64,000 nucleotides of DNA from Oscillospiraceae bacterium (GTDB taxonomy: Bacteria > Bacillota > Clostridia > Oscillospirales > Oscillospiraceae). Location: the NCBI GenBank assembly GCA_902761635.1, contig CACWLG010000001.1, positions 133,258 through 197,257 of the forward strand. Direction: 5' to 3'. Numbering within the stretch: position 1 is the first letter of the stretch; each line of letters begins with the position of its first letter. Made by a program: the position numbers and the translations under genes. Below, piece after piece: positions 12,582 to 42,866 of the stretch. The notes under the pieces were generated by a model. The model did no database searches and was not told where the DNA came from. It saw nothing but the letters and a program-made list of their open reading frames with translations.

Positions 12582-12599
12582 GTTTTTCCTCCTGTATTG

Positions 12600-23291: not shown

Positions 23292-24080
23292 TCAAGTCAA
23301 GCCTTCGTTTTCCTTTTTTCGGTATGCTCCGAAAAGGCTCTCGTAGCTGCCGGGCTCCATGCCGTAAAGGCTGTCGATATACCCGCAGGTGAAAATCTCC
23401 GCCGGGGCGCCGCTGCGGTCCACGCGCCCATCCCTGACGCAAAGCAGGGTATCGGCAAAGCGCTCGGCAAGCTCCAGCTCGTGCATGCTCATGACCACGG
23501 CGATCTGCCGCTCCTTTGAGAGAATGCGCAGAAGCCGGAGAAACTCCAGCTTGTGGCGAATGTCAAGAAAGGAGGTGGGCTCATCCAGAACGAGAAGGCG
23601 CGGCTGCTGGCAAAGGGCGCGGGCCAGCAGGACCCGCTGGCGCTGCCCATCGCTGATGCGCGTAAAATCCCGCTCGGCAAGGGCGGTGATGCCGACCTTC
23701 TCCATGGTCTCGCGCACAACAAGGCGGTCTTTCTCCGTGAGCAGGCCAAGACGGCCCGTATAGGGGTAGCGCCCGGCGGCCACCACCTCCCCGCAGCGCA
23801 TGAGCTCCGGCTCGGGCTTACCGGTCAGGACAGCGGCGCAGAGCCTGGCAAGCTCCCGCTCCCGATAGTCCCGCAGCGCTCTGCCCGCAAGCATGATCTC
23901 CCCGCGCACCGGGGGCAGGGCGCGGATCAGGGTTTTGAGGAGCGTGGACTTGCCCGCCCCGTTCGGGCCGATGAGGCAGAGGATCTGCCCCGCCGCGGCA
24001 TGAAGGTCAATGTCAGAGACCACGGTTTTTTCCCCATAGCCGACAGAGAGCTTTTCCGTATACAGGATCGTCTCCCTCAT
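23292..24080 (-). CDS. BtuD/FecE-type ABC importer ATPase
   Basis: A 262-residue ATPase of the siderophore/cobalamin/heme importer class. Walker A GPNGAGKST is near residues 38-46, the signature reads ISDGQRQR (Asp replacing the usual Gly), and Walker B LLVLDEPTSFLD follows. It overlaps the permease gene by 4 bp (ATGA), which fixes the start at 24080. It is the last gene of the riboswitch-led cobalamin operon. Substrate could be cobalamin or its precursors, cobalt, iron or heme; the operon context favours cobalamin-related or tetrapyrrole cargo. Confidence 0.85.
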   Translation of the reverse strand: MRETILYTEKLSVGYGEKTVVSDIDLHAAAGQILCLIGPNGAGKSTLLKTLIRALPPVRGEIMLAGRALRDYRERELARLCAAVLTGKPEPELMRCGEVVAAGRYPYTGRLGLLTEKDRLVVRETMEKVGITALAERDFTRISDGQRQRVLLARALCQQPRLLVLDEPTSFLDIRHKLEFLRLLRILSKERQIAVVMSMHELELAERFADTLLCVRDGRVDRSGAPAEIFTCGYIDSLYGMEPGSYESLFGAYRKKENEGLT

Positions 24081-25099
24081 ACGCCGCCCCCCTTCCCGCG
24101 CCGAAGCAAAATCCAGATCACGACCGGCGCGCCGAAGATCGCCGTCACCGAGCCGATGGCAAGCTCCGTCGGCGCAAAGAGGGTGCGGGCAAGCAGATCG
24201 CAGCCCAGGCAGAAGCCCGCCCCGCCGAGAAAGCAGGCAGGGATCAGCACACCCGGCCTTGCGGTCCGGAAGAGTCCCTTCATGAGCTGCGGCACCGCAA
24301 TGCCCACGAAGGAGACGGGCCCGGCAAAGGCCGTGACACAGGCGGCCAGGAGGCTTGACAGTCCGATGAGGGCAAGGCGGAAGCGGCGGATATTCACCCC
24401 CATGCTGGCGGCGTAGTCCTCCCCGAGCTGCCAGGCCGCCATGGGCTTTGCCAGGAAAACGCAGCAGACAAGCGCGGCCGCGACGATCAGGGCCGCCGTG
24501 CCGAGCTCTGCCCAGTCCACGCCCGAGAAGCTGCCCATGGACCAGTAGTGGAGGTTTACGATGTGGCTGTCGTCGGCAAAGGTCACCGCGAAATCCGTGA
24601 TCGCCGAGCAGATATAGCCGATCATCACCCCGCAGACGATAAGGCGCGACATGCCCCGGGTCCGGCCCGCCGCAAGCAGGAGAAAGCCTATGGCGAGAAG
24701 CGCCCCCGGAAAGGCAGCACCGATCATGCCCCAGGCGCTCAGGCTCACGCCCCGGTCGAGACAGGCGATCATCGTGAGGGCCACGGTGAGCTTTGCGCCC
24801 GAGGAGACCCCCAGCACAAAGGGCCCTGCAATGGGATTGGAAAAGAAGGTCTGCAGCAGAAAGCCCGCCACTGACAGCGCCCCGCCCAGAAGCGCCGCCG
24901 CAAGCAGTCGCGGCAGGCGTATGCTCCACACGATGCGCGCGGCGCTCTCTGTCCTGTCCCCGGAAAAAAGGGCGTGAAGAAGCGTCCCTGCCCCGATGCG
25001 CGTGCTGCCCACCGCGAGATTGACCAAGCCCAATCCCAGTGTCAGCACAGCCAGGAGCAGGAAACAGAGAAGACTGCGTTTTGTCCGGCTCATGCTCAT
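24077..25099 (-). CDS. BtuC/FecCD-type ABC importer permease
   Basis: A 340-residue permease with about ten hydrophobic helices. Family motifs are visible: RLPRLLAAALLGGALSVAG (residues about 61-79), the NPIAGPFVLGVSSGA segment (near 88-102) that follows it in BtuC/FhuB proteins, and the cytoplasmic coupling region with GPVSFVGIAVPQLM near 265. It works as a homodimer with the ATPase and the binding protein. It starts 1 bp after the binding-protein stop codon. It may import corrinoids, heme or metal chelates. Confidence 0.88.
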   Translation of the reverse strand: MSMSRTKRSLLCFLLLAVLTLGLGLVNLAVGSTRIGAGTLLHALFSGDRTESAARIVWSIRLPRLLAAALLGGALSVAGFLLQTFFSNPIAGPFVLGVSSGAKLTVALTMIACLDRGVSLSAWGMIGAAFPGALLAIGFLLLAAGRTRGMSRLIVCGVMIGYICSAITDFAVTFADDSHIVNLHYWSMGSFSGVDWAELGTAALIVAAALVCCVFLAKPMAAWQLGEDYAASMGVNIRRFRLALIGLSSLLAACVTAFAGPVSFVGIAVPQLMKGLFRTARPGVLIPACFLGGAGFCLGCDLLARTLFAPTELAIGSVTAIFGAPVVIWILLRRGKGGGV

Positions 25100-25100
25100 A

Positions 25101-26201
25101 TCATTGGATCCTGTGTAAATACGTCAAATCCTTGTCTGCCCCGTCCAGTACGGCACGGATGTCCGCGATCATGTCCGCCGCGGCGGAGGAGCGCTGGAAC
25201 ATGCTCATCTCCGTACACCAGACATGGTTTTCCTGCACCGCCTTAAAATCCTTCAGTACAGGGCTGAGAGCGAGAAAGGCGTCCAGATCCTCCACATCCC
25301 CGGCAGTGGTGCTGTTGTAGATCAGCACATCCGCGTCCCGCGCCTGGGCGTAGAAGGATTCCAGCTGGATCGTCACCGTAGACAGGGCGCTGTCCTCCCC
25401 CGGGAGATCGGTGAAGGCCGTTGCGCCGCCGGCAAGCTCGATCATGCGTGTGACATAGTCCGCCGCCCGGCGCACCACAACACCGCCGCCGGGGGTAAGA
25501 TGGAAGAAGGCAACGCTTTTGCCGGAGGGCGCCGCGTTCTCAACTGTCCGGAAAAGCTCCTCCTGGCGGGCGAAGAAGGCATCCGCCTCCGCCTGCCGCC
25601 CGGTCAGAAGCCCGTAGAGCCGTATCCACTCCACCCGCCCGAGCGGGTGGGGCTCGTAGCTGGAATACTCGACCAGCACGGGGATGCCCAGCTCCTCCAG
25701 CTTCTCCCGGACCGCGGGGCTGTGGAGGATCATGGTGTTCTCGATGGCAAGGCCGCAGCCCTCACTGAGCAGCAGCTCATAATCCGGCGCGCTGTATTTG
25801 CCTGCGTACCAGATCCGCTCTTCCTCCATGGCTGCCCGCAGCTCAGGGATGCGCCAGTTCTCCGGGGCGGTGGAGCTGTACTGCACCGCATCCAGAGCCC
25901 CCATCCGCAGGAAGAGATCGGGGGCGGAGGAGCTTGCAAGGTAGAGCTTTTCCGCCGGGACGGGGATGCGCGGCAGGGCCTCCAGGCCCTTCGGAACCGG
26001 GGCCCCGGCAGGCAGGAGCAGATAATCCTGATCCGCCCCGATGCGAAGCCGCGCCGCCCCGCCGTTATAACAGTCCACGGAGAAGTGCTCGGCATAGTGC
26101 AGGTCCATGCTGCCGTGAGGCTCCTCCGTCCCGGAAAAGGCCGCGCCGGGGCAGAGCAGCAGAGAAAGCAGCGCAAGGCAGACGCAGAGCGCCCGCCTCA
26201 C
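25101..26201 (-). CDS. BtuF/FepB-type substrate-binding protein
   Basis: A 366-residue exported binding protein of the periplasmic-binding class III type. The signal peptide covers about residues 1-23. Two lobes are joined by a long helix near 180-215. The first lobe has SSSAPDLFLRMGALD, and the second has ELAGGATAF and the DADVLIYNST motif typical of siderophore, heme and cobalamin binders. It starts with GTG at 26201, which overlaps the TGA of the upstream gene (GTGA), indicating translational coupling. No good lipobox is seen, so retention at the surface may depend on the neighbouring secreted protein or the permease. Ligand unknown. Confidence 0.8.
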   Translation of the reverse strand: MRRALCVCLALLSLLLCPGAAFSGTEEPHGSMDLHYAEHFSVDCYNGGAARLRIGADQDYLLLPAGAPVPKGLEALPRIPVPAEKLYLASSSAPDLFLRMGALDAVQYSSTAPENWRIPELRAAMEEERIWYAGKYSAPDYELLLSEGCGLAIENTMILHSPAVREKLEELGIPVLVEYSSYEPHPLGRVEWIRLYGLLTGRQAEADAFFARQEELFRTVENAAPSGKSVAFFHLTPGGGVVVRRAADYVTRMIELAGGATAFTDLPGEDSALSTVTIQLESFYAQARDADVLIYNSTTAGDVEDLDAFLALSPVLKDFKAVQENHVWCTEMSMFQRSSAAADMIADIRAVLDGADKDLTYLHRIQ

Positions 26202-27055
26202 GGGGCGGCCTCCAGACTCTTCGAGTCAAAGCAGAGAGTGTAGCGGATCTCATGCGGCTCACTCATGGCGACGGTATCGGCGATCACCGCCATGGGCCGG
26301 TCAAAGCAGAGAACCGGGATCTCAAAGGCGGCGTACTCCTCATTCGGGACGGGCAGGATCTTCTCCCCCTCCACCTTCATGTAGTCGTAGTTTTTGCTGC
26401 TCCAGCCGATGCGGGCGGTGCAGCTCCCGTCCTTCACGCTCAGCTCTGCCGGGCTCTGGACACGGGCTTTCCCGCTGCCGCCCGCAAGCTTCACCTCAAC
26501 CAGATAGCGCCCGTCGGCAAGCTGAAGGCTTGAAGCCGTGGTGAAAAAGCCGTCCTTAAAGGCGCTGCGCGGCAGGGAGTCCGCCCGAAAGAGGAGGCTG
26601 CGATCATACCAGAGCTCCTTGTTTTTGCTGTAGGCCGCGCAGGAGACAGGGGCGTCCAGCGCCTCCACCGGGACAGTGAAGGTATGCGCGCCGTCGGCGT
26701 TTTCCGCGAAGGGGACAAAGGCGCTCTCGTCTGCCGATGCCGCCTCTTTGGCGGTGCCTGGGCAGACATAGAGATAGCTCTTGCCGCTCATGGTGAGAAC
26801 GGCGGACATTGCCCCGTCTCTCACCGTGAGCACGGCGCTCTCAATGCGAAACATTGAAGAACTGCACTCCACCGTGACGGGGTATTCCCCGTCCTCAAGA
26901 CTCCCAGCGTAAACCGGGACCATGCCCTCCTCCGTCACATCCTGCACCGTGGTCATCTGAGAGGCGTCTGCCACGTCGGAGGTGTCGGCAAAGGCAGCGG
27001 TGCCCATGCTCAGGAGCATGAACAGCGTGAGACTCAGCGCAAGGCTCTTTCTCAT
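26198..27055 (-). CDS. Secreted two-repeat protein, NEAT-like in appearance, unknown function
   Basis: A 285-residue exported protein with signal peptide (cleavage after AAFAD, near residue 24). Two related beta-rich repeats follow, about residues 52-150 and 165-275. Both begin with LxDGxYxVxV, then xLxVxDGxxxAxxxxSxKxYxYxxV, and end with FxxPVxxxDxPxxxxA. The pattern Ser-x-Lys-x-Tyr after a beta hairpin recalls NEAT domains and other iron-transport associated folds, but I cannot prove homology by eye. It lies between cbiK and the BtuFCD importer and overlaps both by 4 bp, so it is surely part of that system, perhaps as a cell-surface ligand carrier. Confidence 0.55.
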   Translation of the reverse strand: MRKSLALSLTLFMLLSMGTAAFADTSDVADASQMTTVQDVTEEGMVPVYAGSLEDGEYPVTVECSSSMFRIESAVLTVRDGAMSAVLTMSGKSYLYVCPGTAKEAASADESAFVPFAENADGAHTFTVPVEALDAPVSCAAYSKNKELWYDRSLLFRADSLPRSAFKDGFFTTASSLQLADGRYLVEVKLAGGSGKARVQSPAELSVKDGSCTARIGWSSKNYDYMKVEGEKILPVPNEEYAAFEIPVLCFDRPMAVIADTVAMSEPHEIRYTLCFDSKSLEAAP

Positions 27056-28014
27056 TTTATGCTCTCCTCAATGTCGTTTGCGGCCATGGCCTCACGGGTG
27101 TGCTCCACGATGAGCTCCCGGATAGCGGGAAGCTGGCCAAGGCCCTCGACCACACATTCGACCTCATAGCCTGCGGCGGTGAAGACGCTCTTCCAGGAGT
27201 CGTCCTCGTCGCCCGCCATGTCATTGTTGGCGTGGTCGCCCGCCACGATCATCAGGGGGCGCAGTACGACGCGCTTGTATGATCCGTTCTGCACCATCTC
27301 GAGCACTTCCTCAACGCTGGGCTCGGCCTCGACCGTGCCGATGTAATAGTGCTCGCAGCCGGCCTCTTTGAGGACGGTCTGCATTTTGGAATAGACTGCG
27401 TTCGACTCCGCCTCGGTGCCGTGGCCCATGAAGCAGATCGCGGTGTCCCCATCGTCATACTCTGCCGTGGCAGCGGCTACGGCCTCGGCCACCGTGTCAA
27501 AGTCGCGGTCGGTGTTTAAGAGGGGCTCGGCCAGGACGACCCTGTCAAATGCGTCTGCATATTCGGCAAGCTCGTTTTTCAGATCGTTGTACTCAATGCC
27601 GTGCATCAAATGCGTCGGCTGTACAACGAGGGTCTTGACGCCATTGTCGGCCGCACGCTCCAGAGCGTCGTGCACATTGTCGATGGCCTCACCGTCACGT
27701 TCCTTCACGTGGTCGATGATGATCTGGCTTGTGAAGGCGCGGCGCACGCTCCAGTCTGGGAAGGCGGCCTCCAGGTCGCTCTCGATGGCGCCGATGGTCA
27801 GACGGCGGCTGTCGTTGTAGCTGGTGCCGAAGGACACGACCAGCAGCTCGTTTTCCCCGATGCCGTCGGCATTGCGGGGATCGTCCAGGGAGGCGTCGCC
27901 GGTCTCGAAGTCCTCCTCGTCCTTCGCCTCGGCAAAGGCAGACATGGGGGCGCAAGCTGACAGGATCAGCGTAAGGCTCAGGATACAGGTCAGGATCTTC
28001 TTTATGGTTTTCAT
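27052..28014 (-). CDS. cbiK: Exported sirohydrochlorin cobaltochelatase CbiK
   Basis: A 320-residue CbiK-family class II chelatase that inserts Co(II) into sirohydrochlorin in the early-insertion cobalamin route. Metal and catalytic residues are all present: His135 (PTHLMHG), Glu229 (GTVEAEP) and His261 in the AGDHANNDM motif, plus GHG at 197-199. Unlike ordinary cytoplasmic CbiK it begins with a signal peptide and lipobox LSAC (Cys21), followed by an acidic linker to about residue 50. It is therefore predicted to be a lipoprotein outside the membrane. Periplasmic CbiK is known from Desulfovibrio. It overlaps cbiJ and the secreted two-repeat gene by 4 bp each. Confidence 0.88.
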   Translation of the reverse strand: MKTIKKILTCILSLTLILSACAPMSAFAEAKDEEDFETGDASLDDPRNADGIGENELLVVSFGTSYNDSRRLTIGAIESDLEAAFPDWSVRRAFTSQIIIDHVKERDGEAIDNVHDALERAADNGVKTLVVQPTHLMHGIEYNDLKNELAEYADAFDRVVLAEPLLNTDRDFDTVAEAVAAATAEYDDGDTAICFMGHGTEAESNAVYSKMQTVLKEAGCEHYYIGTVEAEPSVEEVLEMVQNGSYKRVVLRPLMIVAGDHANNDMAGDEDDSWKSVFTAAGYEVECVVEGLGQLPAIRELIVEHTREAMAANDIEESIK

Positions 28015-28784
28015 GTTGGTTCTCCTTTTTCCATTTCATTTTTATTTGCATCGCTCAGTCGCGTTATGCACAGATCCAGAACATCGTCAAAGGGCATTCC
28101 GCGCTCCGCCGGGCGGCGCAGGACGATGAGCTGCGCGCCGGTCTCCTTTGCGGCCGCCGCCTTTTCGGGGAAGCCGCCGGGCTTGCCGCCGTCCTTGCTG
28201 ACGACATAGCGGACGCCGTACTGGCGGATGACGGCGGCGTTGAGGTCTTTGGAAAAGGGGCCTTGCATAGCGATGATGTTGCGGTGGGGAATCCCCAGGG
28301 CTTCACAGGCGGCAAGGCTCTCATGGCTCGGCAGAATCCGGGGGATCAGCCGTTCGGGGTCCAGGCAGGTGAAGGCCATGAGCTCCTTCGCCCCGGTTGT
28401 GAGCAGGACGCGGCCCGCGCGTTCTTTGAGATAAGCCGCCGCCTCTGCCGCACTCCCGACCGTGACGGCGTCCGGGATCTCCGAGGCCTCACGCAGAAGG
28501 CGCAGATACTCCACTCCCGCCGATTCGCAGGCCGCCCGGACCGAGGCCGTCACATGGCCTGCGTAAGGGTGCGTGGCGTCCACGCAGAGGTCGGCGTCAC
28601 GCAGGAGCGCCTGCTTTTCCTCCGCCGTGAGGGGGCCGGTACGCGTCTCGACGCCGGGGACCTGACCCTGCTCCTCCTCGCCGTATTCCGTGGCGACACA
28701 GACCGTGACCTCTGCCCCGGCATCAGTCAGCCGCTCTGACAGCTCCCGTCCCTCGGTGGTGCCGCCGAAGATCACGATCTTCAT
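28011..28784 (-). CDS. cbiJ: Cobalt-precorrin-6A reductase CbiJ
   Basis: A 257-residue NAD(P)H-dependent reductase that reduces the macrocycle of cobalt-precorrin-6A to 6B. The Rossmann start IFGGTTEGREL (residues 5-15) and the DATHPYAG motif (near 69-76) are diagnostic of the CobK/CbiJ family, as is VSKDGGKPGGF near 205. It overlaps cbiH by 4 bp (ATGA) and cbiK by 4 bp. It acts in the cytoplasm between CbiD and the CbiET fusion. Confidence 0.93.
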   Translation of the reverse strand: MKIVIFGGTTEGRELSERLTDAGAEVTVCVATEYGEEEQGQVPGVETRTGPLTAEEKQALLRDADLCVDATHPYAGHVTASVRAACESAGVEYLRLLREASEIPDAVTVGSAAEAAAYLKERAGRVLLTTGAKELMAFTCLDPERLIPRILPSHESLAACEALGIPHRNIIAMQGPFSKDLNAAVIRQYGVRYVVSKDGGKPGGFPEKAAAAKETGAQLIVLRRPAERGMPFDDVLDLCITRLSDANKNEMEKGEPT

Positions 28785-29509
28785 GCGTGATACCCCCGGG
28801 GCGTCACCATGCGCCCGCCGATCTCCCGGGTTTGAGACGAGCCGATGAACGCCGTCGTGAACATGTCGGCCCGGGCATCCCGCAGGGTTTTGAGGTCCAG
28901 GATCTGCCAGCTCTCCCCCTCGCGCCCGATCTGCCGGACAAGACCGCAGACCGTGTCGCCGCCCTTTTCCGTGAGCAGGATGTCGCAGGCTTTTTGAAGA
29001 TAGTCCTGCCGGTGCCGGGAGGCGGGGTTATACAGGCAGATGGCAAAATCCCCCTGCGCTGCCAGGCGCAGACGCTTTTCAATGAGCGCCCAGTCGGTCA
29101 GGCGGTCGGAGAGGGAGATCACGCAGAAGTCGTGCCCCAGAGGCGCGCCGAGCAGGGCGCCGCCCGAGAGCGCCGCCGTGACGCCGGGGATCACCGTCAC
29201 CGACGCTCCGGGGTATTCCGGCATGAGCGTGAGCACCGGACCCGCCATGCCGTAAACGCCCGCGTCCCCGCTGCAGACGAGGGCGACGGTCTCCCCCGCC
29301 GCGGCCCGCTCCAGACAGTGGCGGCAGCGTTCGATCTCCCCGGTCATGCCCGTGGTGTAGTATTCCTTCCTCGGGTACATCGGGCGCAGGAGATCCGCGT
29401 AAACGGTATAGCCGCAGATCAGCGCTGCCCTTTCGAGCGCCTCCCGCGCCGCCCCGGTCAGGTTTTCGGCATTGCCGGGGCCGATGCCCACAACGTACAG
29501 TTCAGCCAT
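28781..29509 (-). CDS. cbiH: Cobalt-factor III C17-methyltransferase CbiH
   Basis: A 242-residue SAM-dependent methyltransferase of the uroporphyrinogen-methylase superfamily. The N-terminal VGIGPGN loop binds the substrate and SAM, and the LVCSGDAGVYGMA stretch (near residue 82) and SLSDRLTDW are typical of CobJ/CbiH. It methylates C17 and contracts the corrin ring. The start at 29509 (MAELYVVG) is used because it overlaps the cbiG stop and aligns with family N-termini; an ATG 6 codons earlier is less likely. Confidence 0.92.
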   Translation of the reverse strand: MAELYVVGIGPGNAENLTGAAREALERAALICGYTVYADLLRPMYPRKEYYTTGMTGEIERCRHCLERAAAGETVALVCSGDAGVYGMAGPVLTLMPEYPGASVTVIPGVTAALSGGALLGAPLGHDFCVISLSDRLTDWALIEKRLRLAAQGDFAICLYNPASRHRQDYLQKACDILLTEKGGDTVCGLVRQIGREGESWQILDLKTLRDARADMFTTAFIGSSQTREIGGRMVTPRGYHA

Positions 29510-30491
29510 CCTGCCAGCTCCAATCATAGTCTTTGCGCCTCTCGGCCAGGGCGAAGGTCACCCCGCCGCGGGCGTATTTTTTTTCGATCAGTTTTTCGCC
29601 TGCTTCGATGTTCGCTGCCCGCTCGCAGATATTGTCGACGCCCGTCACGCTCTTTACAAAGGCTGAGGCGCTATACGTCCCCGGCGCGCTCTGAAGCTCA
29701 TCGGCACTGTAAAAACGCAGCGGCCAGCCGTGGGATGCGCAGAAGCGCAGAAGTCCCGCCTCGTCCTGCTTGAGGTCGATGGTGGCGGCACGCTCGACGG
29801 ACTCCGGCACGATGCCGCGTTCGGCGCAGAATTGCCGGAAGGCAGCCTCCAGGGTGTCTTCTCCCGTTCCCCGTCTGCACCCGACACCGAGCGTCAGTAT
29901 ACGCGGGACAAGCTGCAAGGCGCCGCCTGTAAGCGTCCGATAAGACACGACGACATCCGCGTCCCGGCCAAGGCGCACCAGCTCCGGCACAGCTCCGGCG
30001 ACAGGCTGCGGGCAGTCGACGGTGATGATCTCCCCCCGCAGGATCCTGGCGGAGACGTTTTTGATCCGCTCCGGCTGCAGGACAGTCATCCCCTGCCGTT
30101 TTGCCCAGAGATCCACGGCGAAGCGGCGGTTTAAGTCCGTAGCGGTGGTAATCACGGCCTCGCCTCCGGTGAGGGCGGCAAGGCGCCTTGCAAGGGCGTT
30201 GCCCCCGCCGAGATGGCCGGAGAGGATCGGGACGACCCAGCGCCCTGCCTCGTCCATACAGATCACAGCGGGATCGGCCGCCTTGCTTTGGAGATACGGG
30301 GCGATCGAACGCACCGCAATGCCCACGGCCCCGATAAAAACCAGCGCCTCACAGGAAAGGAAGCTCTCCTCTGTCCAACCCGCAAGGGGCTGTGTGTTTT
30401 CCCGCAGCGTCCCACCGAGGGACGCTGCGATCTCGGACGCGAGCTTCCTCCCCCGCTCCGTAAAGGCGGTCAGCGCGATGCCTTCTCTCAT
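29502..30491 (-). CDS. cbiG: Cobalt-precorrin-5A hydrolase CbiG
   Basis: About 329 residues. CbiG opens the lactone of cobalt-precorrin-5A and releases the C20 fragment as acetaldehyde. The N-terminal part has GAVGIAVR and SGHLGGGNALA, the hallmark of the central CbiG domain, and the C-terminal domain contains LGVGCRRGT and a terminal GVDNICERAA segment. The ATG at 30491 overlaps the cbiD stop as ATGA and has GGAG 6 nt upstream, so it is preferred to the ATG at 30503. Early cobalt insertion (with CbiD, CbiK) marks this as the anaerobic pathway. Confidence 0.92.
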   Translation of the reverse strand: MREGIALTAFTERGRKLASEIAASLGGTLRENTQPLAGWTEESFLSCEALVFIGAVGIAVRSIAPYLQSKAADPAVICMDEAGRWVVPILSGHLGGGNALARRLAALTGGEAVITTATDLNRRFAVDLWAKRQGMTVLQPERIKNVSARILRGEIITVDCPQPVAGAVPELVRLGRDADVVVSYRTLTGGALQLVPRILTLGVGCRRGTGEDTLEAAFRQFCAERGIVPESVERAATIDLKQDEAGLLRFCASHGWPLRFYSADELQSAPGTYSASAFVKSVTGVDNICERAANIEAGEKLIEKKYARGGVTFALAERRKDYDWSWQDG

Positions 30492-31621
30492 TCTTTTCTC
30501 CATGTATCCATCAGCTCCTTTGCCCCGGCGGTGAGGCCGGTCAGGTCCTTTTCGCCGGAAAAGAGCAGTGCTCCGATGCGCATGTCACCCGCCCGCTGTG
30601 TCAGCGCCTCCTGAATGGCGCAGAGCAGGCTCTCTATCACGCTCTCCCGCAGGCCGGCGCGATCCAGCACGGCAAGGCAGCCCTCGCTGCTGACCTCCGC
30701 CATCAGAGCGCGGCAGGTCGCCGTGTCCGCGCCGCAGAGGGCAGCGTGACAGACGAAGAGCTCCCGCCGGCAGTCGGCGGTTTTGGAGTGTGTGTTCATG
30801 ATCCCGCCCGCAAGCTTCACAAGCTTGCCGATGTGGCCGATCAGCAGCAGCTCCGCAAAACCCTCGACCCGGGCGGTGTCGATGGCCTCGCCGATATAGT
30901 TGGAGCATTTGGCCCGGGGGATCGGCTCCAGCTCCGGCAGGGACGTGGTGAGATAGTCCATGCCGTAGTTGCCGGGCAGGAGGATGAGACGCTTGCTGCC
31001 GCCTGCAGCCGCCTGACGGATTTCCAGCGCGGTGGTCTCCACGATGGCGCGCTCGCTCATAGGCTCGACGATGCCGGAGCTGCCAAGGATCGAGAGACCG
31101 CCCACGATACCGAGGCGGGGGTTGAAGGTCCGCTTTGCGATCTCCTCCCCGCCGGGGACAAAGATCAGGATCTTAAGCCCGCCGGTGTAGGTACATGCTT
31201 TGCATACCCTCTCCGCCGCCGCCCGGATCATCTCCCGGGGCACACTGTTGATGGCCGCGGCGCCCACCGGCTGGTCAAGGCCCGGCTTCGTCACACGGCC
31301 GACGCCTTCGCCGCCGTCAAGCTCGATGCCGTGTTCTGTCTTCCGAACTGCGGCGCAGATCAGCATGCCGTCGGTCACATCCGGGTCGTCCCCCGCGTCC
31401 TTGCGGATGGCGCAGCAGGCCTCCGGGCCCTCCATGCGGCAGAAGTCCGGCTCCAGCTCCACCTGCCAGCCCCTGGGCGTCATGAGGCTCACGACAGCGG
31501 GCGCCCTGCCCGTGAGCAGCAGCTCCGCTGCCCCGGCCGCGGCAAGGGCTGCACAGGTTCCTGTGGTATAGCCGCAGCGCAGAAGCCTTGTCCCGCTGCG
31601 AATATAGTGTTCAAAGCCCAT
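30488..31621 (-). CDS. cbiD: Cobalt-precorrin-5B C1-methyltransferase CbiD
   Basis: A 377-residue methyltransferase specific to the anaerobic pathway. The N-terminal LRCGYTTGTCAA motif (residues about 14-25), GRVTKPGLDQPVG (near 110) and the GNYG and IGHIGKLVKLAGG motifs (near 240 and 280) are CbiD signatures. It methylates C1 of cobalt-precorrin-5B. The start at 31621 lies within the end of the Cys-rich gene, an 11-bp overlap that suggests translational coupling. Confidence 0.94.
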   Translation of the reverse strand: MGFEHYIRSGTRLLRCGYTTGTCAALAAAGAAELLLTGRAPAVVSLMTPRGWQVELEPDFCRMEGPEACCAIRKDAGDDPDVTDGMLICAAVRKTEHGIELDGGEGVGRVTKPGLDQPVGAAAINSVPREMIRAAAERVCKACTYTGGLKILIFVPGGEEIAKRTFNPRLGIVGGLSILGSSGIVEPMSERAIVETTALEIRQAAAGGSKRLILLPGNYGMDYLTTSLPELEPIPRAKCSNYIGEAIDTARVEGFAELLLIGHIGKLVKLAGGIMNTHSKTADCRRELFVCHAALCGADTATCRALMAEVSSEGCLAVLDRAGLRESVIESLLCAIQEALTQRAGDMRIGALLFSGEKDLTGLTAGAKELMDTWRKE

Positions 31622-31889
31622 CCCTGTCCTCCCGCCGCGCGGCCAGGGCGCTGAGCTCCGGGAAACGCTTGAGCAGGGCGGCATAGTTCTCCCGCCGGTG
31701 AGGAAACGAGCAGGCCTCGCAGCTCTTCACGCCATTTTCGGTGTAGGCATAGTCCCCGCCGCAGGCCTCCCCCAGGGTGTAGAGGGGGCAGTAGCAGAAG
31801 AGGCAATTGAAATCCGCCTCTGCAGTGCCGCTGTGGCAGGGGAAAAACTCGCAGTCCCGGTTTTGAAAGAATTGATAATGCTTTTCCAT
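31611..31889 (-). CDS. Cysteine-rich small zinc-ribbon-like protein
   Basis: A 92-residue protein with ten cysteines in the order CEFFPC, CLFCYC, EACGG and CEACSFP, matching the Cys-rich small domain family (Pfam PF04071), which is often found in cobalamin gene clusters and sometimes fused to corrin enzymes. It probably binds zinc or an iron-sulfur centre. Its job is unknown; carrying cobalt or handling a corrin intermediate has been considered plausible from context. The ATG at 31889 begins 2 bp after the cbiC stop, and its end overlaps cbiD by 11 bp, so it is firmly embedded in the operon. Confidence 0.75.
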   Translation of the reverse strand: MEKHYQFFQNRDCEFFPCHSGTAEADFNCLFCYCPLYTLGEACGGDYAYTENGVKSCEACSFPHRRENYAALLKRFPELSALAARREDRDGL

Positions 31890-31891
31890 CT

Positions 31892-32554
31892 TCAGCTCCA
31901 GCCCCGTTCCTTCGGATCCAGCATGTCTGCCGCAGTGTAGAGCAGGGCGTTGCAGACGGCGGCGGCAATGCTGCTGCCCCCCTTGCGCCCGAGGGCGACG
32001 ATGGCGGGCACGCCATGCTTCTCGCAGCTCTCCAGCACCCGCTCCTTGCTCTCCACGACGTTCACAAAGCCCACCGGCACCCCGATCACAAGCGCCGGGC
32101 GCAGGCCTCCTTCGATCTTCTCCGCGATGCGAAGAAGAGCCGTGGGGGCGTTGCCGACCGCGAGGATGGCGCCCGGGTGCTGTGCCGCCGCCCAATCCAC
32201 GGCGGCGACGGCCCGGGTAGTCCCCTGCGCCCTGGCAGCTTCCGCAACGCACTCGTCCGCCATGAAGCAGTACGCGGCGCCGCCGAGCTTTTTGAGGCCC
32301 GGACGGCTGAGCCCCGCGAGGGTCATGTTGGTATCGGTCACGATCTCCGCTCCCCGCCGCAGGGCCTTAACGCCAGCCTCCACGGCGCCGGAGGTAAAAC
32401 GCAGGTTCCCGGCGTAGTCAAAATCCGCGCTCGCGTGGATGCAGCGGAGGATCACGGCGGCATTCTCCGGCGGGAGCGCGATTCCCCGCGCGCGCAGCTC
32501 TGCCGTGATGATCGCCATGCTGCCGTTTTCTATTTCAGCGGGCCGTGTCTTCAT
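31892..32554 (-). CDS. cbiC: Cobalt-precorrin-8 methylmutase CbiC
   Basis: A 220-residue CobH/CbiC-family enzyme. It moves the C11 methyl to C12 to give cobyrinate. Family features visible are RCIHASADFDYA with the catalytic histidine (near residue 40), TDTNMTLAG (near 73), GNAPTAL (near 135) and the C-terminal GRKGGSSIAAA. It overlaps the end of cbiP by 20 bp. Confidence 0.95.
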   Translation of the reverse strand: MKTRPAEIENGSMAIITAELRARGIALPPENAAVILRCIHASADFDYAGNLRFTSGAVEAGVKALRRGAEIVTDTNMTLAGLSRPGLKKLGGAAYCFMADECVAEAARAQGTTRAVAAVDWAAAQHPGAILAVGNAPTALLRIAEKIEGGLRPALVIGVPVGFVNVVESKERVLESCEKHGVPAIVALGRKGGSSIAAAVCNALLYTAADMLDPKERGWS

Positions 32555-34028
32555 CGGCGTATTCCTCCATGATCTTGTAGATACGCTGCATGTCCAGGGC
32601 CTTTCTCACCGCGTCGGCCAGCAGATCGTATTGCCGGGCCCTTGAGGCGGCGCGCGTCTCGATATGCACGCGGGGGATCGTGATCCCCTTCCGCTCAGCA
32701 AGCCAGGCTGCAAGCTTTTCCACTGCCGCCCCGCTGTCAAAGAGACCGTGCAGGTAGGTCCCGCAGATCATGCCGCTGACTGCGCCGTCCGTCCCGCCGT
32801 CAGGAAAGCGGCAGAATGCTGCGGCAGCCTTCGTGTCGGTCCGGCCCATGTGGATTTCGTAGCCGGTGAGCTCCGCCCCGGCAAGGGGCCCCGCCGTACA
32901 GACAGCCCTGCGGCGTGTACGTATCTTCCCTGCGGTGAACACCGTGTCCACCGGCAGAAGGCCGAGGCCCGGCTGCTCCCCGCCCGCTTCGATGCCCGCC
33001 GGGTCCCGGAGTGTGCGGCCCAGCATCTGGTAGCCGCCGCAGACGCCGAGAATCGGGGTGCCGCGCTTCGCCGCGTCCGCAACGGCCCCGGCAAGGCCGC
33101 AGTCCCGCAGCCACCTGAGATCGGCCATGGTGTTCTTCGTGCCCGGCAGGATAATCATGTCCGGATCTCCGAGCTCCTTCAAACGGTTTACATAATACAT
33201 CCCCATGCTGGGGTGTTCTTCCAGCGGGGCAAAGTCTGTAAAATTGGAGATATGCGGCAGACGGACAACGGCGATCCGGATCGCGCGCGCTGTGTGCTTT
33301 TGCGCGAGGCACGGGGCAAGGCTGTCCTCATCATCGATGTCCGCCCGGACATAAGGCACCACGCCGAGGACCGGCATCTGTGTCAGCGCCTCAAGTTCTC
33401 TCAGGCCGGGGCGCAGCAGCTCCGCATCCCCTCGGAATTTGTTGATGACGGTCCCCTCCACGCGCCGCCGCTCCTCTTCTCTCAGCAGGGCGACAGTGCC
33501 GTAGAGCTGAGCGAAGACGCCGCCCCGGTCAATGTCGCCCGTGAGCAGGACCGGCGCGTTCACGAGGGCGGCAAGGCCCATGTTGACAATGTCGTCCTCG
33601 CGCAGATTGATTTCTGCCGGGGAACCGGCCCCCTCGATGACGAGGATATCGTTTTCAGCCTCAAGGCTCCGATATGCGTTCAGAATGTCCGGGATCAGGC
33701 CGCGCTTCATGCGAAAATACTCCCGCGCATCATAGTGCCCGCGCACCTCGCCGTTGACGATGAGCTGGCTGCCCGTGTCGCTGGAGGGCTTTAACAAAAT
33801 CGGGTTCATGCGCACGTCGCACTCCACGCCTGCCGCCTCCGCCTGCACTGCCTGGGCACGGCCGAGTTCCAGCCCGTCTGGCGTGACGAAGCTGTTGAGG
33901 GCCATGTTCTGGCTTTTGAAGGGCGCGACGCGGTATCCGTCCTGTGCGAAGATCCGGCAGAGGGCCGTGACCAGCAGGCTTTTTCCCGCACCGGACATGG
34001 TGCCCTGGATCATGATTCGTTTAGCCAT
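32535..34028 (-). CDS. cbiP: Cobyric acid synthase CbiP/CobQ
   Basis: A 497-residue ATP- and glutamine-dependent amidase that amidates carboxylates b, d, e and g of adenosyl-cobyrinate a,c-diamide. The N-terminal DTB synthetase-like domain has the P-loop GTMSGAGKS (residues 9-17) and KSQNMALNS. The C-terminal class I glutaminase domain has the nucleophile Cys in GVCGGYQM (near 330) and the catalytic histidine in YLHGLFD (near 427). It overlaps cobD by 8 bp. Confidence 0.95.
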   Translation of the reverse strand: MAKRIMIQGTMSGAGKSLLVTALCRIFAQDGYRVAPFKSQNMALNSFVTPDGLELGRAQAVQAEAAGVECDVRMNPILLKPSSDTGSQLIVNGEVRGHYDAREYFRMKRGLIPDILNAYRSLEAENDILVIEGAGSPAEINLREDDIVNMGLAALVNAPVLLTGDIDRGGVFAQLYGTVALLREEERRRVEGTVINKFRGDAELLRPGLRELEALTQMPVLGVVPYVRADIDDEDSLAPCLAQKHTARAIRIAVVRLPHISNFTDFAPLEEHPSMGMYYVNRLKELGDPDMIILPGTKNTMADLRWLRDCGLAGAVADAAKRGTPILGVCGGYQMLGRTLRDPAGIEAGGEQPGLGLLPVDTVFTAGKIRTRRRAVCTAGPLAGAELTGYEIHMGRTDTKAAAAFCRFPDGGTDGAVSGMICGTYLHGLFDSGAAVEKLAAWLAERKGITIPRVHIETRAASRARQYDLLADAVRKALDMQRIYKIMEEYADEDTAR

Positions 34029-35073
34029 GGAGCACCTCCCTCAGCGCCGTCAGGAGCCGGTCGTTCTCCTCCTCCGTCCGGACAGCGGTGCGGTACCAGC
34101 CTGCCGTAAGGCCGTCAAAGTTCCGGCAGTCCCGGAGGAGAATGCCCCGCGCCCGCAGCGCGTCCGCGAGGTTCGGGTCCCCCGCGTAAAAGAGCAGGAA
34201 GTTCGCCTCCCCCGGGATTACCCGCAGGCCGAGGGCCTCGAGCGCCCGGATCAGGCGGCGGCGTTCAGCGGTGACCAGAGCGCGCAGTTGGTTTACATAA
34301 CATTCATCCTGCAAGGCTGCCGTTCCGGCGGCCTGAGCAGGCACGGATACCGGCCAGGGCTGACCGCAGCCGCAGAGCCTCTCTGCGAGCGCCGCCCTGC
34401 CGCAAAGGGCATAGCCCAGGCGCAGGCCCGCCATGGCATAGGTCTTGGTAAAGGCCTTGAGGATCACCAGCTCCGGCGTCCCGGCAAGCGCCCCGACCAG
34501 GCTGTGCTTTGCGGGGTCTGCGCAGAAATCCAGAAAGCACTCATCGACAGCAAGCGTCATGCCCCGCGCCCGGCAGCGCTCCAGCAGCGACAGCAGGGCG
34601 CTCTGCTCGGCGAGCAGGCCCGTCGGATTATGGGGATTGCAGACAAACAGCAGCTCCGTATCCGGCGGGACAAGGGCGGCGGCATCCGCCGTGAGGCGAA
34701 AATCCCCGGGCAGGGGCAGACGCACGATCTCGCAGTCCTCGAAGGCAAGGGCACGCTCATACTCCGCGAAGCCGGGGACGAACAGCGCCGCCTTTCTGGG
34801 CCGCAGTGTCCGGCAGAGCCGCCAGATCAGATCCGCCGCCCCGCCGCCGCAGACGATGCTGTCTGCGGGTACGCCGTGGTGCGCCGCCAGGGCCTGCCGC
34901 AGGGCGCGGCACTGGGGATCGGGGTAGCGCTCCGCATCCGCCAGGGCCTCAAGCGCCGCCCGCCGTGCCCCCTCCGGCAGGCCGAGGGGACTGATACAGG
35001 CCGAAAAGTCCAGGGGCCTTGTGCCGTATTCCATTTCAAACCCGGCCCAATCGCCGCCGTGGATCAGCTCCAT
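34021..35073 (-). CDS. cobD: Threonine-phosphate decarboxylase CobD
   Basis: A 350-residue PLP enzyme of the class I aminotransferase fold, closest in form to histidinol-phosphate aminotransferase and CobD. It begins with LIHGGDW and LDFSACISPLG, the CobD-type N-terminus. PLP contacts include NPHNPTG (near residue 151) and the Schiff-base lysine in AFTKTYAMAGLR (near 212). CobD makes (R)-1-amino-2-propanol phosphate for the nucleotide-loop linker. Position beside cbiB, its partner step, makes CobD more likely than a histidine enzyme. Confidence 0.88.
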   Translation of the reverse strand: MELIHGGDWAGFEMEYGTRPLDFSACISPLGLPEGARRAALEALADAERYPDPQCRALRQALAAHHGVPADSIVCGGGAADLIWRLCRTLRPRKAALFVPGFAEYERALAFEDCEIVRLPLPGDFRLTADAAALVPPDTELLFVCNPHNPTGLLAEQSALLSLLERCRARGMTLAVDECFLDFCADPAKHSLVGALAGTPELVILKAFTKTYAMAGLRLGYALCGRAALAERLCGCGQPWPVSVPAQAAGTAALQDECYVNQLRALVTAERRRLIRALEALGLRVIPGEANFLLFYAGDPNLADALRARGILLRDCRNFDGLTAGWYRTAVRTEEENDRLLTALREVLHG

Positions 35074-35128
35074 TTCCCATCCCTCTCTTCTCTCTCACTC
35101 CGCCGCCGGGTCAATCAAGGCTTAATGC

Positions 35129-36103
35129 CTACGGAATCCATATGCACAGCAGCATACGCAGCGCCCCCAGCACCGCAAGGCCCAGCACCGCCCCGGCGTA
35201 TTCCAGGCGGCAGGCGCGGCGGATATCCCCGGGGACGATCTCCCGGCGCTTGTCCCCAAGCCAGGGCTTTTCATGCCGCACGCCGAAGTAGCGTGCCGGG
35301 CCGCCCAGGCGCAGGCCCAGCGCCCCCGCCATGGCTGCCTCGCACTGGGCGGAATTGGGGCTTGCGTGTTTTCGCCGGTCCCGCCGCCAGATGCGAAAGG
35401 CCGAAGCCGCATCCTCCCCCATAAGCCATGCCGCTGCGATCAGCAGCAGGGCGGCAAGGCGCGCGGGGAGGAAATTTGCCGCGTCATCCAGCTTCGCCGG
35501 GGCCCGGCCGAAGTGGAGATAGCGCGCGTTTTTATAGCCGAGCATGCTGTCCATCGTATTGATAGCCTTATAGCAAAGGGCAAGCGGCGCGCCGCCCGTC
35601 AGCATCCAGAAAAGCGGGGCGACCACCCCGTCGGAAAAATTCTCCGCCACAGTCTCCACCGCCGCACGCGTGACCCCCGCAGCGCTGAGCTCATCGGTGT
35701 CACGGCCCACGATCCGGGAAACGGCTCTGCGGGCAGCGTTCAGCCCCTCGGTCTCCAGTGCGGTCATGACACGCATGGCCTCGACGCGCAGATCCTTGAC
35801 GGCCAAGGCCTGCCAGCACCAGATCACCTCCAGCGTGAAGGAGAGCTTCGGGGAGAGAGCGTCCAGCGCGCGCAATGCAAGCTTGCAGAACGCAAATGTC
35901 CCGCCACTCATCAGGAGCGCCAGCGTAAGGCCCGCGCGGTACTCGCCCTGCGGCGTTTTGGGGAACAGGGCGCGCAGGCGCTTTTCCAGGGCCGTGATGG
36001 CTTTGCCCATCAGCACCACCGGATGAACGGGTGCAAGCCGGGCGGGATCGCCCAGCAGCAAATCCAGCACAAAGCCGCAGAGGGCAGCAAGCAGAATCCT
36101 CAT
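35129..36103 (-). CDS. cbiB: Adenosylcobinamide-phosphate synthase CbiB
   Basis: A 324-residue integral membrane protein with about four to five helices. It joins aminopropanol phosphate to adenosyl-cobyric acid. Motifs LLLGDPARLAPVHPVVLMG (near residues 13-31), ENFSDGVVAPLFW (near 150) and the C-terminal region with NSAQCEAAMAGALG are typical of the CobD/CbiB membrane family. The start at 36103 forms an ATGA overlap with cobC. Confidence 0.94.
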   Translation of the reverse strand: MRILLAALCGFVLDLLLGDPARLAPVHPVVLMGKAITALEKRLRALFPKTPQGEYRAGLTLALLMSGGTFAFCKLALRALDALSPKLSFTLEVIWCWQALAVKDLRVEAMRVMTALETEGLNAARRAVSRIVGRDTDELSAAGVTRAAVETVAENFSDGVVAPLFWMLTGGAPLALCYKAINTMDSMLGYKNARYLHFGRAPAKLDDAANFLPARLAALLLIAAAWLMGEDAASAFRIWRRDRRKHASPNSAQCEAAMAGALGLRLGGPARYFGVRHEKPWLGDKRREIVPGDIRRACRLEYAGAVLGLAVLGALRMLLCIWIP

Positions 36104-36663
36104 CTGCGAAAGTCCACCTCCCGCAGGACATGCAGGCGCTGCCCGTCCCACTCGAGCGCCCAGCCGCAGCCGCAGGGGCGCTGGCCCTGCCAGTATTCCC
36201 GCGTAGGCTCGCCCCAGCGCTCAAGGGCTGCCATCTGCGTGCCGCCGTGGGCGACGATTACAAGCGGATCCTCTTCCCTTTGCAGGAGCGCTTCCAGCGC
36301 AGTACAGACCCGGGCCGCGTATTCTGGCAGATCCTCGCCGCCGGGGCAGCGGCCGGTGCACCCGCCGTCCACCCAGGCGCGGTAAGCGGCATCATGCTCC
36401 ATCTCCCACCAGCCGCGCCCTTCAAAAGCGCCGAAGTCCATTTCCCGGAGATCCGGGATCACGAGCTGCACAGACGCCGGGAACAGGATCGCCGCCGTCT
36501 CCCGGGCGCGCAGCATCGGTGAGACATAGACACGCTCAGGAGCAAGCTCCGCCCGCTTTAATTCCGCGCAGCCACGGGCGGAAAGGCCCTCGTTCAGCGC
36601 ACCCTGATAGCGTTTTTCCTCGCCGAGGCGGGTGAGGCCGTGTCGAATGAGATAGAGCTTCAC
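36100..36663 (-). CDS. cobC: Alpha-ribazole phosphatase-like histidine phosphatase CobC
   Basis: A 187-residue histidine-phosphatase superfamily enzyme. The catalytic RHG motif is at residues 7-9 (LIRHGLT), with VSPMLRARET near 47 and the second histidine in VAHGG near 138. In cobalamin clusters this family removes the phosphate from alpha-ribazole 5'-phosphate or adenosylcobalamin 5'-phosphate. It overlaps the short cobU paralogue by 4 bp. The last 40 residues are unusually Trp/Gly-rich but the enzyme is of normal length. Confidence 0.88.
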   Translation of the reverse strand: MKLYLIRHGLTRLGEEKRYQGALNEGLSARGCAELKRAELAPERVYVSPMLRARETAAILFPASVQLVIPDLREMDFGAFEGRGWWEMEHDAAYRAWVDGGCTGRCPGGEDLPEYAARVCTALEALLQREEDPLVIVAHGGTQMAALERWGEPTREYWQGQRPCGCGWALEWDGQRLHVLREVDFRR

Positions 36664-36992
36664 GGCAGTTTCCCCTTCAGAACCTGCCCCAGACCGCAGC
36701 AGACGCGGATCACCGTGTCGGCGCGCTCCGCCAGCAGGCAGGCAAGGCGGCCCGCGGCCTCGCGCTTTTCGCGCTCCTCCGGGTTGACGGGAATAAGGCC
36801 GCCGCCGATCTCGGTAGCGATGACGATCTCCTTCTGCGCAAGCGCCTGTGCCAAAGCGGTGAGGTCTGCGCCGCAGGCAAGCTCCTGCACATCCCAGACG
36901 GCGCGGGCGGCAAGCGTTTCCTCGCTCAGGCCGAGGGCCTTGCGGATGTATTCTCTTTTCCCCGCAAAGAGCGGGCCGGTGACAAAAATCAT
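36660..36992 (-). CDS. Short CobU-like nucleotide-binding protein
   Basis: A 110-residue protein related to CobU but only about two thirds of its length. The P-loop GPLFAGKRE (residues 6-14) resembles the CobU start, and the second half (EIGGGLIPVNPEEREKREA, AGRLACLLAERAD, VCCGLGQVLKG) matches the CobU C-terminal region. The middle of CobU, with the guanylylation-histidine region, is missing. A full-length cobU also exists in the operon, so this one may be a kinase-only or regulatory form. It lies between cobS and cobC behind GGAGGGAG. Confidence 0.65.
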   Translation of the reverse strand: MIFVTGPLFAGKREYIRKALGLSEETLAARAVWDVQELACGADLTALAQALAQKEIVIATEIGGGLIPVNPEEREKREAAGRLACLLAERADTVIRVCCGLGQVLKGKLP

Positions 36993-37041
36993 GGTGATCT
37001 GACTCCCTCCATCCTCGCCGCGACGGGCGTCGGCAGCTCCC

Positions 37042-37797
37042 TCAGAAGGGGAGCCACTGTCTCACAACCAGCGCGAAAAGCATCCAGAACTCCGCTGTCT
37101 GCAAAAACCACCCGGCGAGATCGCCCGAGAGGCCGCCGAAGTCCCGCACGCACAGACGCCGATAGCGGAGAAACACCAGCGCCGCAGCAAGCGCGGTCTC
37201 CCCTGCCCGCTGCCAAAGCAGCAGGCACACGAGCAGAAGCGAGAGTGCAAGCAGCACATGGCACACGCGCTTTCTCTCCGCGCGCTCGGCAAAGCTGCGG
37301 GCAAGGCCATGGCCTCGGCGCAGGGGAAAGAGCGTGAGCGCCAGGCCTGACAAAGCCCGGGACAGGCAGAAGAGTCCCAGCAGCACCGGAAAGCGCTGTA
37401 CGGGCAGCGCCGTCCACAGGGCGAAGCTCGCAATAAAATATACGCAGAGGCGGATCACCGCAAACGCGCCGAGGTGGGGATCTTTTAAGATTTCCTGCCG
37501 TTTATCCGGCCCGGAGTGGGAGGCAAGTGCGTCACAGGTATCGGCATAGCCGTCCAGGTGGATTCCGCCGGTAATCAGCACCGGCAGCAGGCAGAGCCCC
37601 GCCCCGCGCAGAACGGCGGGCAGAGCAAGGCGCGCGCAGACGAGCTCCCAGCCCCACAGAGCGAGAGCGATCACGGCGCCGATGAGCGGAAAGGCGCAGA
37701 GGCTGTATTTCATGTTGCGCGCATTCCACACAAACTGGGGCACGGGGATGGCCGAGAACATGGAAAAGGCCACGGCAACGGTTTCCAGCACGATCAT
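37042..37797 (-). CDS. cobS: Adenosylcobinamide-GDP ribazoletransferase CobS
   Basis: A 251-residue integral membrane enzyme that joins adenosylcobinamide-GDP to alpha-ribazole or its phosphate. The metal-binding motif GGIHLDGYADTCDA (near residue 76) is diagnostic, and later DFGGLSGDLAGW is characteristic of the C-terminal half. It has about six hydrophobic helices. The start at 37797 overlaps the cobU stop (ATGA). The last codons and stop lie in a GCTCCC...GGGAGC inverted repeat that resembles the dispersed hairpin near 63.9 kb. Confidence 0.93.
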   Translation of the reverse strand: MIVLETVAVAFSMFSAIPVPQFVWNARNMKYSLCAFPLIGAVIALALWGWELVCARLALPAVLRGAGLCLLPVLITGGIHLDGYADTCDALASHSGPDKRQEILKDPHLGAFAVIRLCVYFIASFALWTALPVQRFPVLLGLFCLSRALSGLALTLFPLRRGHGLARSFAERAERKRVCHVLLALSLLLVCLLLWQRAGETALAAALVFLRYRRLCVRDFGGLSGDLAGWFLQTAEFWMLFALVVRQWLPF

Positions 37798-38306: not shown

Positions 38307-38307
38307 G

Positions 38308-42627: not shown

Positions 42628-42650
42628 GAAGATCCCCCCAGAAAGCAAAA

Positions 42651-42679: not shown

Positions 42680-42850
42680 GCGGGCGCGATTTCGCGTCCG
42701 GTCCAGCATGCTTCCGGTTCCGGCAGAAGCAGCGCCCCTCCCCCATGTATCTGACTGATCCCTGTCCTGGCAGGGCTTCACAGTGACCGACTCGCCGGGA
42801 TTTGCACCCGATTCCATGTTCCGCTTTGAAAAGCGGGCGGTGAGGAGCGT
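42680..42850 (-). promoter_or_regulatory. Cobalamin (B12) riboswitch aptamer
   Basis: Read on the minus strand this leader contains the class hallmarks in order: GGTGCAAATCCCGGCG (about 42793-42808), GGTCACTGTGAAGCC (about 42774-42788) and the B12-box core AGTCAGATAC (42747-42756), followed by a G-rich stem region. It sits between the promoter at 42867-42895 and cbiF and should turn the 22-gene operon off when adenosylcobalamin is plentiful. Confidence 0.93.
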
Positions 42851-42866
42851 TTTCGATTATGTTCGT

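Follow-up and report, generated by a model that had tools for sequence, protein, structure and literature searches.

Gene Content and Arrangement of the Locus

A stretch of 64,000 nucleotides from the metagenome-assembled genome (MAG) of an Oscillospiraceae bacterium (assembly GCA_902761635.1, contig CACWLG010000001.1), here called the window, carries on its minus strand a module of five co-oriented neighboring genes (23292-28014) that together form the end of a cobamide operon approximately 19 kb long. From 5' to 3', they encode an exported CbiK-type class II chelatase (P0001; 27052..28014; PF06180, E = 8.3e-81, 271.6 bits vs. a cut-off of 26.2), a secreted two-repeat protein of a divergent, tandem NEAT-like family (P0002; 26198..27055; family match to PF05031), a secreted ATP-binding cassette (ABC) substrate-binding protein (25101..26201; Peripla_BP_2, E = 6.2e-26), a FecCD-type permease (24077..25099; PF01032, E = 9.6e-79) and an ABC transporter ATPase (23292..24080; PF00005, E = 1.1e-27). 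The original prediction, made from the letters of the window, had described this set as an exported CbiK, a two-repeat protein and a BtuFCD-like importer; it is present as claimed, with Pfam matches for four of the genes. The coupling of the genes by 4-base overlaps, also predicted, was confirmed between CbiK and the two-repeat protein, between the two-repeat protein and the binding protein, and between permease and ATPase, but not between binding protein and permease, which are separated by one base without overlap; a further 4-base overlap connects CbiK to the preceding gene, cbiJ.

The best NCBIfam model of the permease was BtuC, at a score under the equivalog cut-off (214.8 vs. 334 bits); the ATPase scored best with the FecE, F420-0 and corrinoid ATPase models. 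The nearest PDB match to the binding-protein family profile was Lmo2184 (5joq; E = 5.2e-6), known as a heme-uptake binding protein; P0003 alone had no PDB match at 0.01. No TonB-dependent outer-membrane receptor occurs among the genes of the window from cbiF to the ATPase.

Distribution and Linkage of the Module

A search with P0001 of 245 genomes of the same order (the order sample) found CbiK in 50 genomes, 16 of which had the exported kind (at least 50% identity to P0001). A match to P0002 was found in the same 16 genomes, and in none of the other 34 CbiK genomes. The module was located on one contig in 15 of the 16; in G107 it was split over two contigs and cut by their ends. By hand count among the matches listed, 13 of the 16 loci adjoin cbi/cob genes; in G184, G221 and G170 the module is alone in its stretch, each time with its own cobalamin riboswitch (L054, L052 and L057). 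The co-occurrence outside cobalamin operons that the original prediction had proposed to look for is thereby reversed. In G201, the exported CbiK follows cbiC, in the slot that is held by a CbiK of the other kind in L068-L070.

In a collection of species genomes, a relative of P0002 was encoded in at least 544 stretches. Within the best 80 among the matches listed (the named loci), 77 have CbiK as the next gene upstream of the P0002 relative, in the same orientation, and 65 have the complete set of five genes together, some loci being cut by contig ends, as is L166; this linkage indicates that the genes are associated more than by chance. The carriers among the named loci belong for the most part to Oscillospiraceae and Lachnospiraceae of ruminant and other guts; isolates with the module include Agathobaculum butyriciproducens, A. 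desmolans, Evtepia gabavorous and Clostridium clostridioforme.

Cobalamin Riboswitches and the Cobamide Operon

Cobalamin riboswitches above the Rfam gathering score were found in 26 of 29 module loci, selected for upstream room and not at random (6/7, 7/7, 1/1 for L052, 6/7 and 6/7). All 26 are located upstream of CbiK and on the CbiK strand, in some loci without any other cbi gene in the stretch; the three misses were L062, L137 and L171. No riboswitch reached the gathering score in L181, L182, L183 and L185, which hold parts of the operon. The scan of the window at the gathering score also returned nothing; at a lower threshold, a compact, atypical cobalamin riboswitch appears at the head of the operon (42725..42856, minus strand; RF00174, 24.9 bits vs. 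a gathering score of 31.5, E = 0.0092). The nearest named relative has the same element in the same place (24.6 bits, E = 0.00074), near-identical in alignment.

Upstream of the module, Pfam and NCBIfam scans resolved the rest of the operon (28011..42648, minus strand) into, from 5' to 3', cbiF-like, cbiET-like, cbiA-like, cobT, cobS, a short open reading frame, cobC-like and cbiB, followed by cobD-like, cbiP-like, cbiC, cbiD, cbiG, cbiH and cbiJ. The cobD-like product is an aminotransferase and the cobC-like product a phosphatase; the finer gene names are provisional, and the short frame, without a Pfam match, is presumably cobU-like by its place.

Active Site, Export and Phylogeny of CbiK

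The active-site pair of Salmonella CbiK is His145 and His207 (PMC7689651). These residues align with His198 and His261 of the window CbiK, and its His135 and Glu229 correspond to Salmonella His83 and Glu175. The original prediction had listed His135, Glu229 and His261 as the retained chelatase residues: His261 does belong to the catalytic pair and Glu229 is kept, but His135 falls outside the published pair, in which the partner of His261 is His198. The window CbiK retains Glu141, His198, Glu229 and His261; across the aligned exported relatives, His135, Glu141, His198 and His261 are identical in 89 of 89, and Glu229 in 88 of 89. With the NCBIfam equivalog for sirohydrochlorin cobaltochelatase, the window CbiK scored under the cut-off (233.1 vs. 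400 bits); its ring and metal specificity are therefore not settled by sequence.

The N-terminus of the window CbiK is by eye a clear signal peptide, from which export is a solid prediction; the motif LSAC(21) fits a lipobox by pattern only. A regular expression (not SignalP) called a lipobox in the CbiK of 66 of the 76 named relatives with a readable N-terminus; for each gene truncated by a contig end, one N-terminus was omitted. Of the ten misses, L111 at least resembles a lipobox by eye. Among near relatives of the window protein, no lipobox was called in L101, L102, L103, L105, L107 and L114; a cysteine at the lipobox position is absent in L102, L107 and L114, and an AxA-type site is visible by eye in L103, L105 and L114. 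Of the lipoprotein signal that had been proposed, the signal peptide thus stands, clear and recurring in the clade, but the lipobox at Cys21 is not conserved in the nearest relatives, so that lipid anchoring of the window CbiK is not solid and either of the two signal peptidases may process it. The recurrence of signal peptides across the clade also led to rejection of the idea that the enzyme is cytoplasmic and its start mis-called.

In a midpoint-rooted tree of 105 CbiK proteins, which contains several long branches, 90 proteins of the exported kind (including that of the window) are split off by a branch with 100/100 support; its other side holds 14 proteins of the other kind, together with a second CbiK that the window's MAG encodes. 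The 14 are classed as cytoplasmic because their matches begin at the chelatase domain, the N-termini being viewed for L068-L070 only. The tree and the residue counts exclude the order-sample loci L055, L061 and L066, and also L033 because of a stop within its match. In some exported CbiKs (L054, L057-L065), the lipobox is separated from the chelatase domain by approximately 45 extra N-terminal residues (LIDAIYVQ...AAWDALTDAQKELV), which may form a small helical spacer. Two CbiK matches in tandem precede the NEAT-like protein in L123, L136, L160 and L175.

The Two-Repeat Protein and Gene Fusions

NEAT domains are known as heme-relay domains of Gram-positive bacteria. Within the P0002 family, 27 of 34 members match the NEAT family PF05031 at E ≤ 0.01 (best, 3.8e-11), and one of ten family sequences scanned reaches the curated cut-off (33.3 vs. 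32.8 bits); judged by these profile matches, the family is probably a divergent tandem NEAT family. Searched against Pfam, P0002 itself had nothing over cut-off, with sub-threshold hits to Big_13 and DUF1375 only; its profile had weak PDB matches only (best, 3sik, E = 0.22), which were not used, and P0002 alone matched ferritins in PDB at E = 0.55 or worse.

Among 77 loci, P0002 and the binding protein share one reading frame in ten, and CbiK and P0002 in two, including a single frame of 915 codons in L136. Fusions in both pairs point to a chain of hand-over from CbiK to the NEAT-like protein and on to the binding protein. Together with the NEAT family match and the linkage described above, they strengthen the earlier proposal of a surface module for tetrapyrrole or metal acquisition. 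Variations on the gene set were also seen: in L057 the two NEAT-like repeats are divided between two genes, and L061-L064 have a tandem pair of binding-protein genes where other loci have one.

Biosynthetic Capacity of the Module Hosts

In the order sample, HemB was found in 2 of the 16 module genomes vs. 27 of the 34 genomes with other CbiKs (Fisher p = 1e-5). The difference persists among genomes that are at least 90% complete (2/13 vs. 27/31, p = 1e-5) and in a hand count by genus in which a genus is positive if any member is (2/11 vs. 13/18, p = 0.008). A second set consisted of 50 named module genomes, picked from the 80 with a view to complete modules and to spread; it shares A. desmolans with the order sample, where this genome is G221. 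HemB was found in 14 and not found in 36 of these, and A. butyriciproducens and E. gabavorous had no HemB match. Consistent pairing of the module with loss of ring synthesis is accordingly rejected. SUMT, confirmed by NCBIfam, was present in the HemB-positive G221 and G201 only; the other 14 module genomes of the order sample gave no match. As a rule, the tetrapyrrole methylases of the 16 genomes are cbiF, cbiH and cbiE plus one gene away from the cbi genes. Fifteen genomes show such a gene, and in each it encodes the 16S rRNA methylase, the fragment in G201 scoring 161 against a cut-off of 168. Of the early ring genes, the genome-wide searches covered HemB and SUMT, and neither was found in the window's MAG, which is 86% complete with 4.7% contamination.

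According to the original prediction, a chelatase outside the cell has no direct means of supplying the pathway in the cytoplasm. This argument presumes a ring made inside the cell, and is undercut by the distribution of HemB (not found in 14/16 and 36/50) and SUMT (not found in 14/16): as most module genomes appear without ring-making genes, the substrate is probably external and may be metallated before import. Of the later steps of the pathway, CbiD is present in 47 of the 50 named module genomes and CbiL in 36, and 24 combine CbiD and CbiL with no HemB. In the order sample, CbiL was found in 6 of the 16 module genomes (one partial).

Fifteen of the 16 module genomes have a single CbiK match. 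Across 50 genomes scanned for CbiX, all matches fall inside a CbiK gene. The presence of a second, unexported CbiK had been named as a check on the prediction. One exists in the window's MAG (L067, 1-4875; G000 contig C40, cut by the contig end), but in a different ABC gene set, and the 15 single-match genomes have none. This second CbiK comes after genes for two binding proteins, the first followed by a CGGC-domain protein, an ATPase and a FecCD permease and the second placed after these, and is not part of the cbi operon; perhaps the set is a metal or heme system, and possibly it is contamination of the MAG. Around CbiKs of the other kind (the best 15 of the 34 genomes), 6 of 15 small loci have cbiM within 1.5 kb. 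Three of these genomes also gave long stretches, in each of which cbiL, hemA and hemB come next. The same cbiM query found nothing in the 16 module stretches or the 80 named loci; CbiMNQO elsewhere in these genomes was not searched.

Two other observations concern the surroundings of the module in the window. Immediately downstream of the ATPase, an 870-residue, GltD-like flavin adenine dinucleotide/Fe-S oxidoreductase is encoded (20597-23209, minus strand). Farther away (11934-13160, minus strand), two small, similar proteins are encoded in tandem and have the stretch LGGxYTAWQAS in common; a third short open reading frame follows (13205-13429).

A Possible Route of Tetrapyrrole Precursor Salvage

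We regard the chances as about even that the five genes form a cobamide-controlled salvage system, in which an external ring of the sirohydrochlorin type receives its metal outside the cell and is then imported. In favor are the riboswitch control, the company of CbiD, the rarity of HemB and SUMT in the hosts, the single CbiK of most module genomes, the lack of cbiM around the module, the NEAT likeness and the fusions, and the conserved pair His198/His261. The host of the window and most carriers keep genes for the corrin ring and the nucleotide loop and appear to lack early ring genes; with HemB and SUMT missing in most hosts, the input would have to enter at or after the level of sirohydrochlorin, which is the level of CbiK. 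The external tetrapyrrole would be bound at the cell surface, where exported CbiK would insert a metal, expected to be cobalt, outside the membrane; the ring would next be taken over or shielded by the two NEAT-like domains and handed to the binding protein. Through the FecCD/ATPase importer, the metallated ring would enter the cytoplasm, and CbiL (if present) or CbiH would continue there toward cobamides. Ring, metal, order of hand-over and direction of transport are what we infer from the gene content. By receiving its metal outside, the ring would be trapped in the form required, and the cell could do without a cytoplasmic chelatase and perhaps without a cobalt importer. Cytoplasmic CbiK has been argued to receive its cobalt through buffered cytosolic metal levels (PMC7689651); for a CbiK that works outside, away from this buffer, the choice of the inserted metal becomes a chemical question. 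More tentatively, and with somewhat less than an even chance, the first committed step of B12 synthesis, the insertion of metal into the ring, may in this clade have been moved outside the cell as such: surface CbiK would trap rings released by other microbes as cobalt complexes, the NEAT-like protein and the ABC transporter would form the relay that imports them, and lineages without CbiL would live on a C20-methylated ring (Factor III), so that B12 synthesis would be divided within a community at the stage of half-built rings.

Several observations weigh against precursor salvage, or limit how far it can be generalized. CbiL was not found in 10 of the 16 and 14 of the 50 module genomes, including the window's MAG and its close relatives L101, L102, L103, L106 and L108, despite the rest of the corrin pathway there, whereas L114, likewise a near relative, has CbiL; in hosts without it the imported ring would have to be methylated at C20 already, and these lineages, that of the window included, are not explained unless such a ring or an unrecognized enzyme is available. 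CbiD is missing in 3 of the 50 named genomes. HemB in 14 of the 50 and 2 of the 16 module genomes means that the module is not limited to ring auxotrophs; in HemB-positive hosts the module may save cost or bring in cobalt, and salvage leaves unexplained how outside CbiK alone would metallate a ring of their own. Conversely, 7 of the 34 genomes with other CbiKs also appear without HemB, so that the module is not the only solution. L130 and L134 encode the NEAT-like protein and the importer without an adjoining CbiK, and P0002 itself has no NEAT match. As a caveat, many of the genomes are MAGs, in which an absence can be a gap; the genome samples are not phylogenetically independent, the 50 named genomes were hand-chosen, and the riboswitch loci likewise were a selected set.

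An importer for finished corrinoids or cobinamide, of the BtuFCD type, is an unlikely alternative; CbiK would then be an accessory that loads cobalt into cobalt-free corrinoids, for example, or serves in binding only. The best model scores of the permease (BtuC) and the ATPase (with a corrinoid ATPase model next to FecE and F420-0) fit this possibility, as do nucleotide-loop genes near the module in several Lachnospiraceae and the riboswitch control that is generally known as typical of B12 importers; yet the permease misses the BtuC equivalog cut-off (214.8 vs. 334 bits), and a corrinoid importer would leave unexplained both the corrin-ring genes kept in hosts without HemB and SUMT and the linkage to NEAT-like domains and to a chelatase with an intact active site. 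Acquisition of heme or iron, where exported CbiK would strip iron or swap the metal before import through the NEAT-like protein and the ABC transporter, as proposed for IhtBCDE of Porphyromonas gingivalis, appears quite improbable for this module. The NEAT likeness of the two-repeat family recalls Gram-positive heme relays, and the binding-protein profile comes nearest to Lmo2184, known as a heme-uptake protein; moreover, FetB, a surface lipoprotein that resembles CbiK and is accompanied by an ABC transporter, has been proposed to remove iron from heme (PMC10913741). An iron system, however, would not be expected to have cobalamin riboswitches in 26 of 29 loci, CbiD in 47 of 50 genomes and a cbi-operon setting, and the 13 of 16 loci beside cbi/cob genes, with riboswitches on the stand-alone ones, likewise make heme or iron uptake less likely here.

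Least probable, and very unlikely in our estimate, is cobalt uptake by means of a carrier: a tetrapyrrole of the host's own or of a neighbor would be loaded by CbiK outside and the complex imported, in replacement of CbiMNQO. Such a carrier would also work in HemB-positive hosts such as A. desmolans, and it accords with the finding that none of the 80 named loci has a cbiM match near the module, against its presence beside some CbiKs of the other kind; but most hosts are without HemB, and there the carrier role merges with ring salvage.

Relation to Known Systems

In the open-access literature, as far as its papers were available and with subscription papers mostly outside the search, nothing was found that describes an exported CbiK together with NEAT domains and regulation by B12; as far as could be seen, the parts are known, and their assembly and the tie to B12 are new. 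Import of precursors by the module, if true, could explain how gut bacteria that lack the early genes still make vitamin B12, and would be a new level of cross-feeding in B12 ecology.

Among known importers, BtuFCD has in common with the module a FecCD permease, a Peripla_BP_2 protein and the cobalamin riboswitch; the module differs by its score under the BtuC cut-off and by the linked exported chelatase and NEAT-like protein. Isd/NEAT relays and Hup-type heme ABC importers of Gram-positive bacteria resemble the module in that a surface NEAT protein hands a tetrapyrrole to a binding protein and a FecCD importer. They are iron and heme systems and are not known to include a chelatase, whereas the module has a linked or fused CbiK and a cobalamin riboswitch. 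The periplasmic CbiK of Desulfovibrio vulgaris (PDB 2xvx-2xvz) is likewise exported and belongs to the same family (129.2 bits), in a host that differs in being diderm; a study by Lobo (2008) is reported to assign separate roles to two CbiKs of this host.

The window CbiK also matched PDB 9b86 ("heme-binding protein FetB") with 152.6 bits; we take this protein to be IhtB of P. gingivalis. Like the module, the Iht system (IhtA-E) combines an exported CbiK-like lipoprotein with a binding protein, a permease and an ATPase; it differs in its diderm host with a TonB receptor, and the available parts of the papers mention neither a NEAT protein nor B12 control. IhtB/FetB has been discussed as a system for obtaining iron from heme or for swapping metals (PMC10913741; PMC13227078; PMC13402209), and P. 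gingivalis has been described as missing the steps that lead to precorrin-2 (PMC6461909); the module may put the Iht system in a new light.

The nearest statement to precursor salvage found in print, within the sections available, comes from a rumen study, where the cobaltochelatase of one bin is said to transport sirohydrochlorin and to bind cobalt to it, citing Lobo 2008; the bin also has BtuFCD genes, and export, NEAT domains and the present gene set are not described there (PMC12654859). A gut-wide reconstruction counts CbiK within complete B12 synthesis, in the available text without the word tetrapyrrole (PMC6593275). A further parallel is with the tetrapyrrole precursor salvagers, a recognized class, mainly Firmicutes and mostly host-associated, a phenotype that Shelton et al. 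defined and tested for users of 5-aminolevulinate (PMC6461909); the portion available names no uptake system, and none was found named for the late precursors of salvagers in the accessible open-access literature. The module, present in A. butyriciproducens and E. gabavorous, is a concrete and cultivable candidate for such a system, and its hosts appear to show the same pattern of loss as these salvagers, with the corrin pathway kept and the early ring genes lost.

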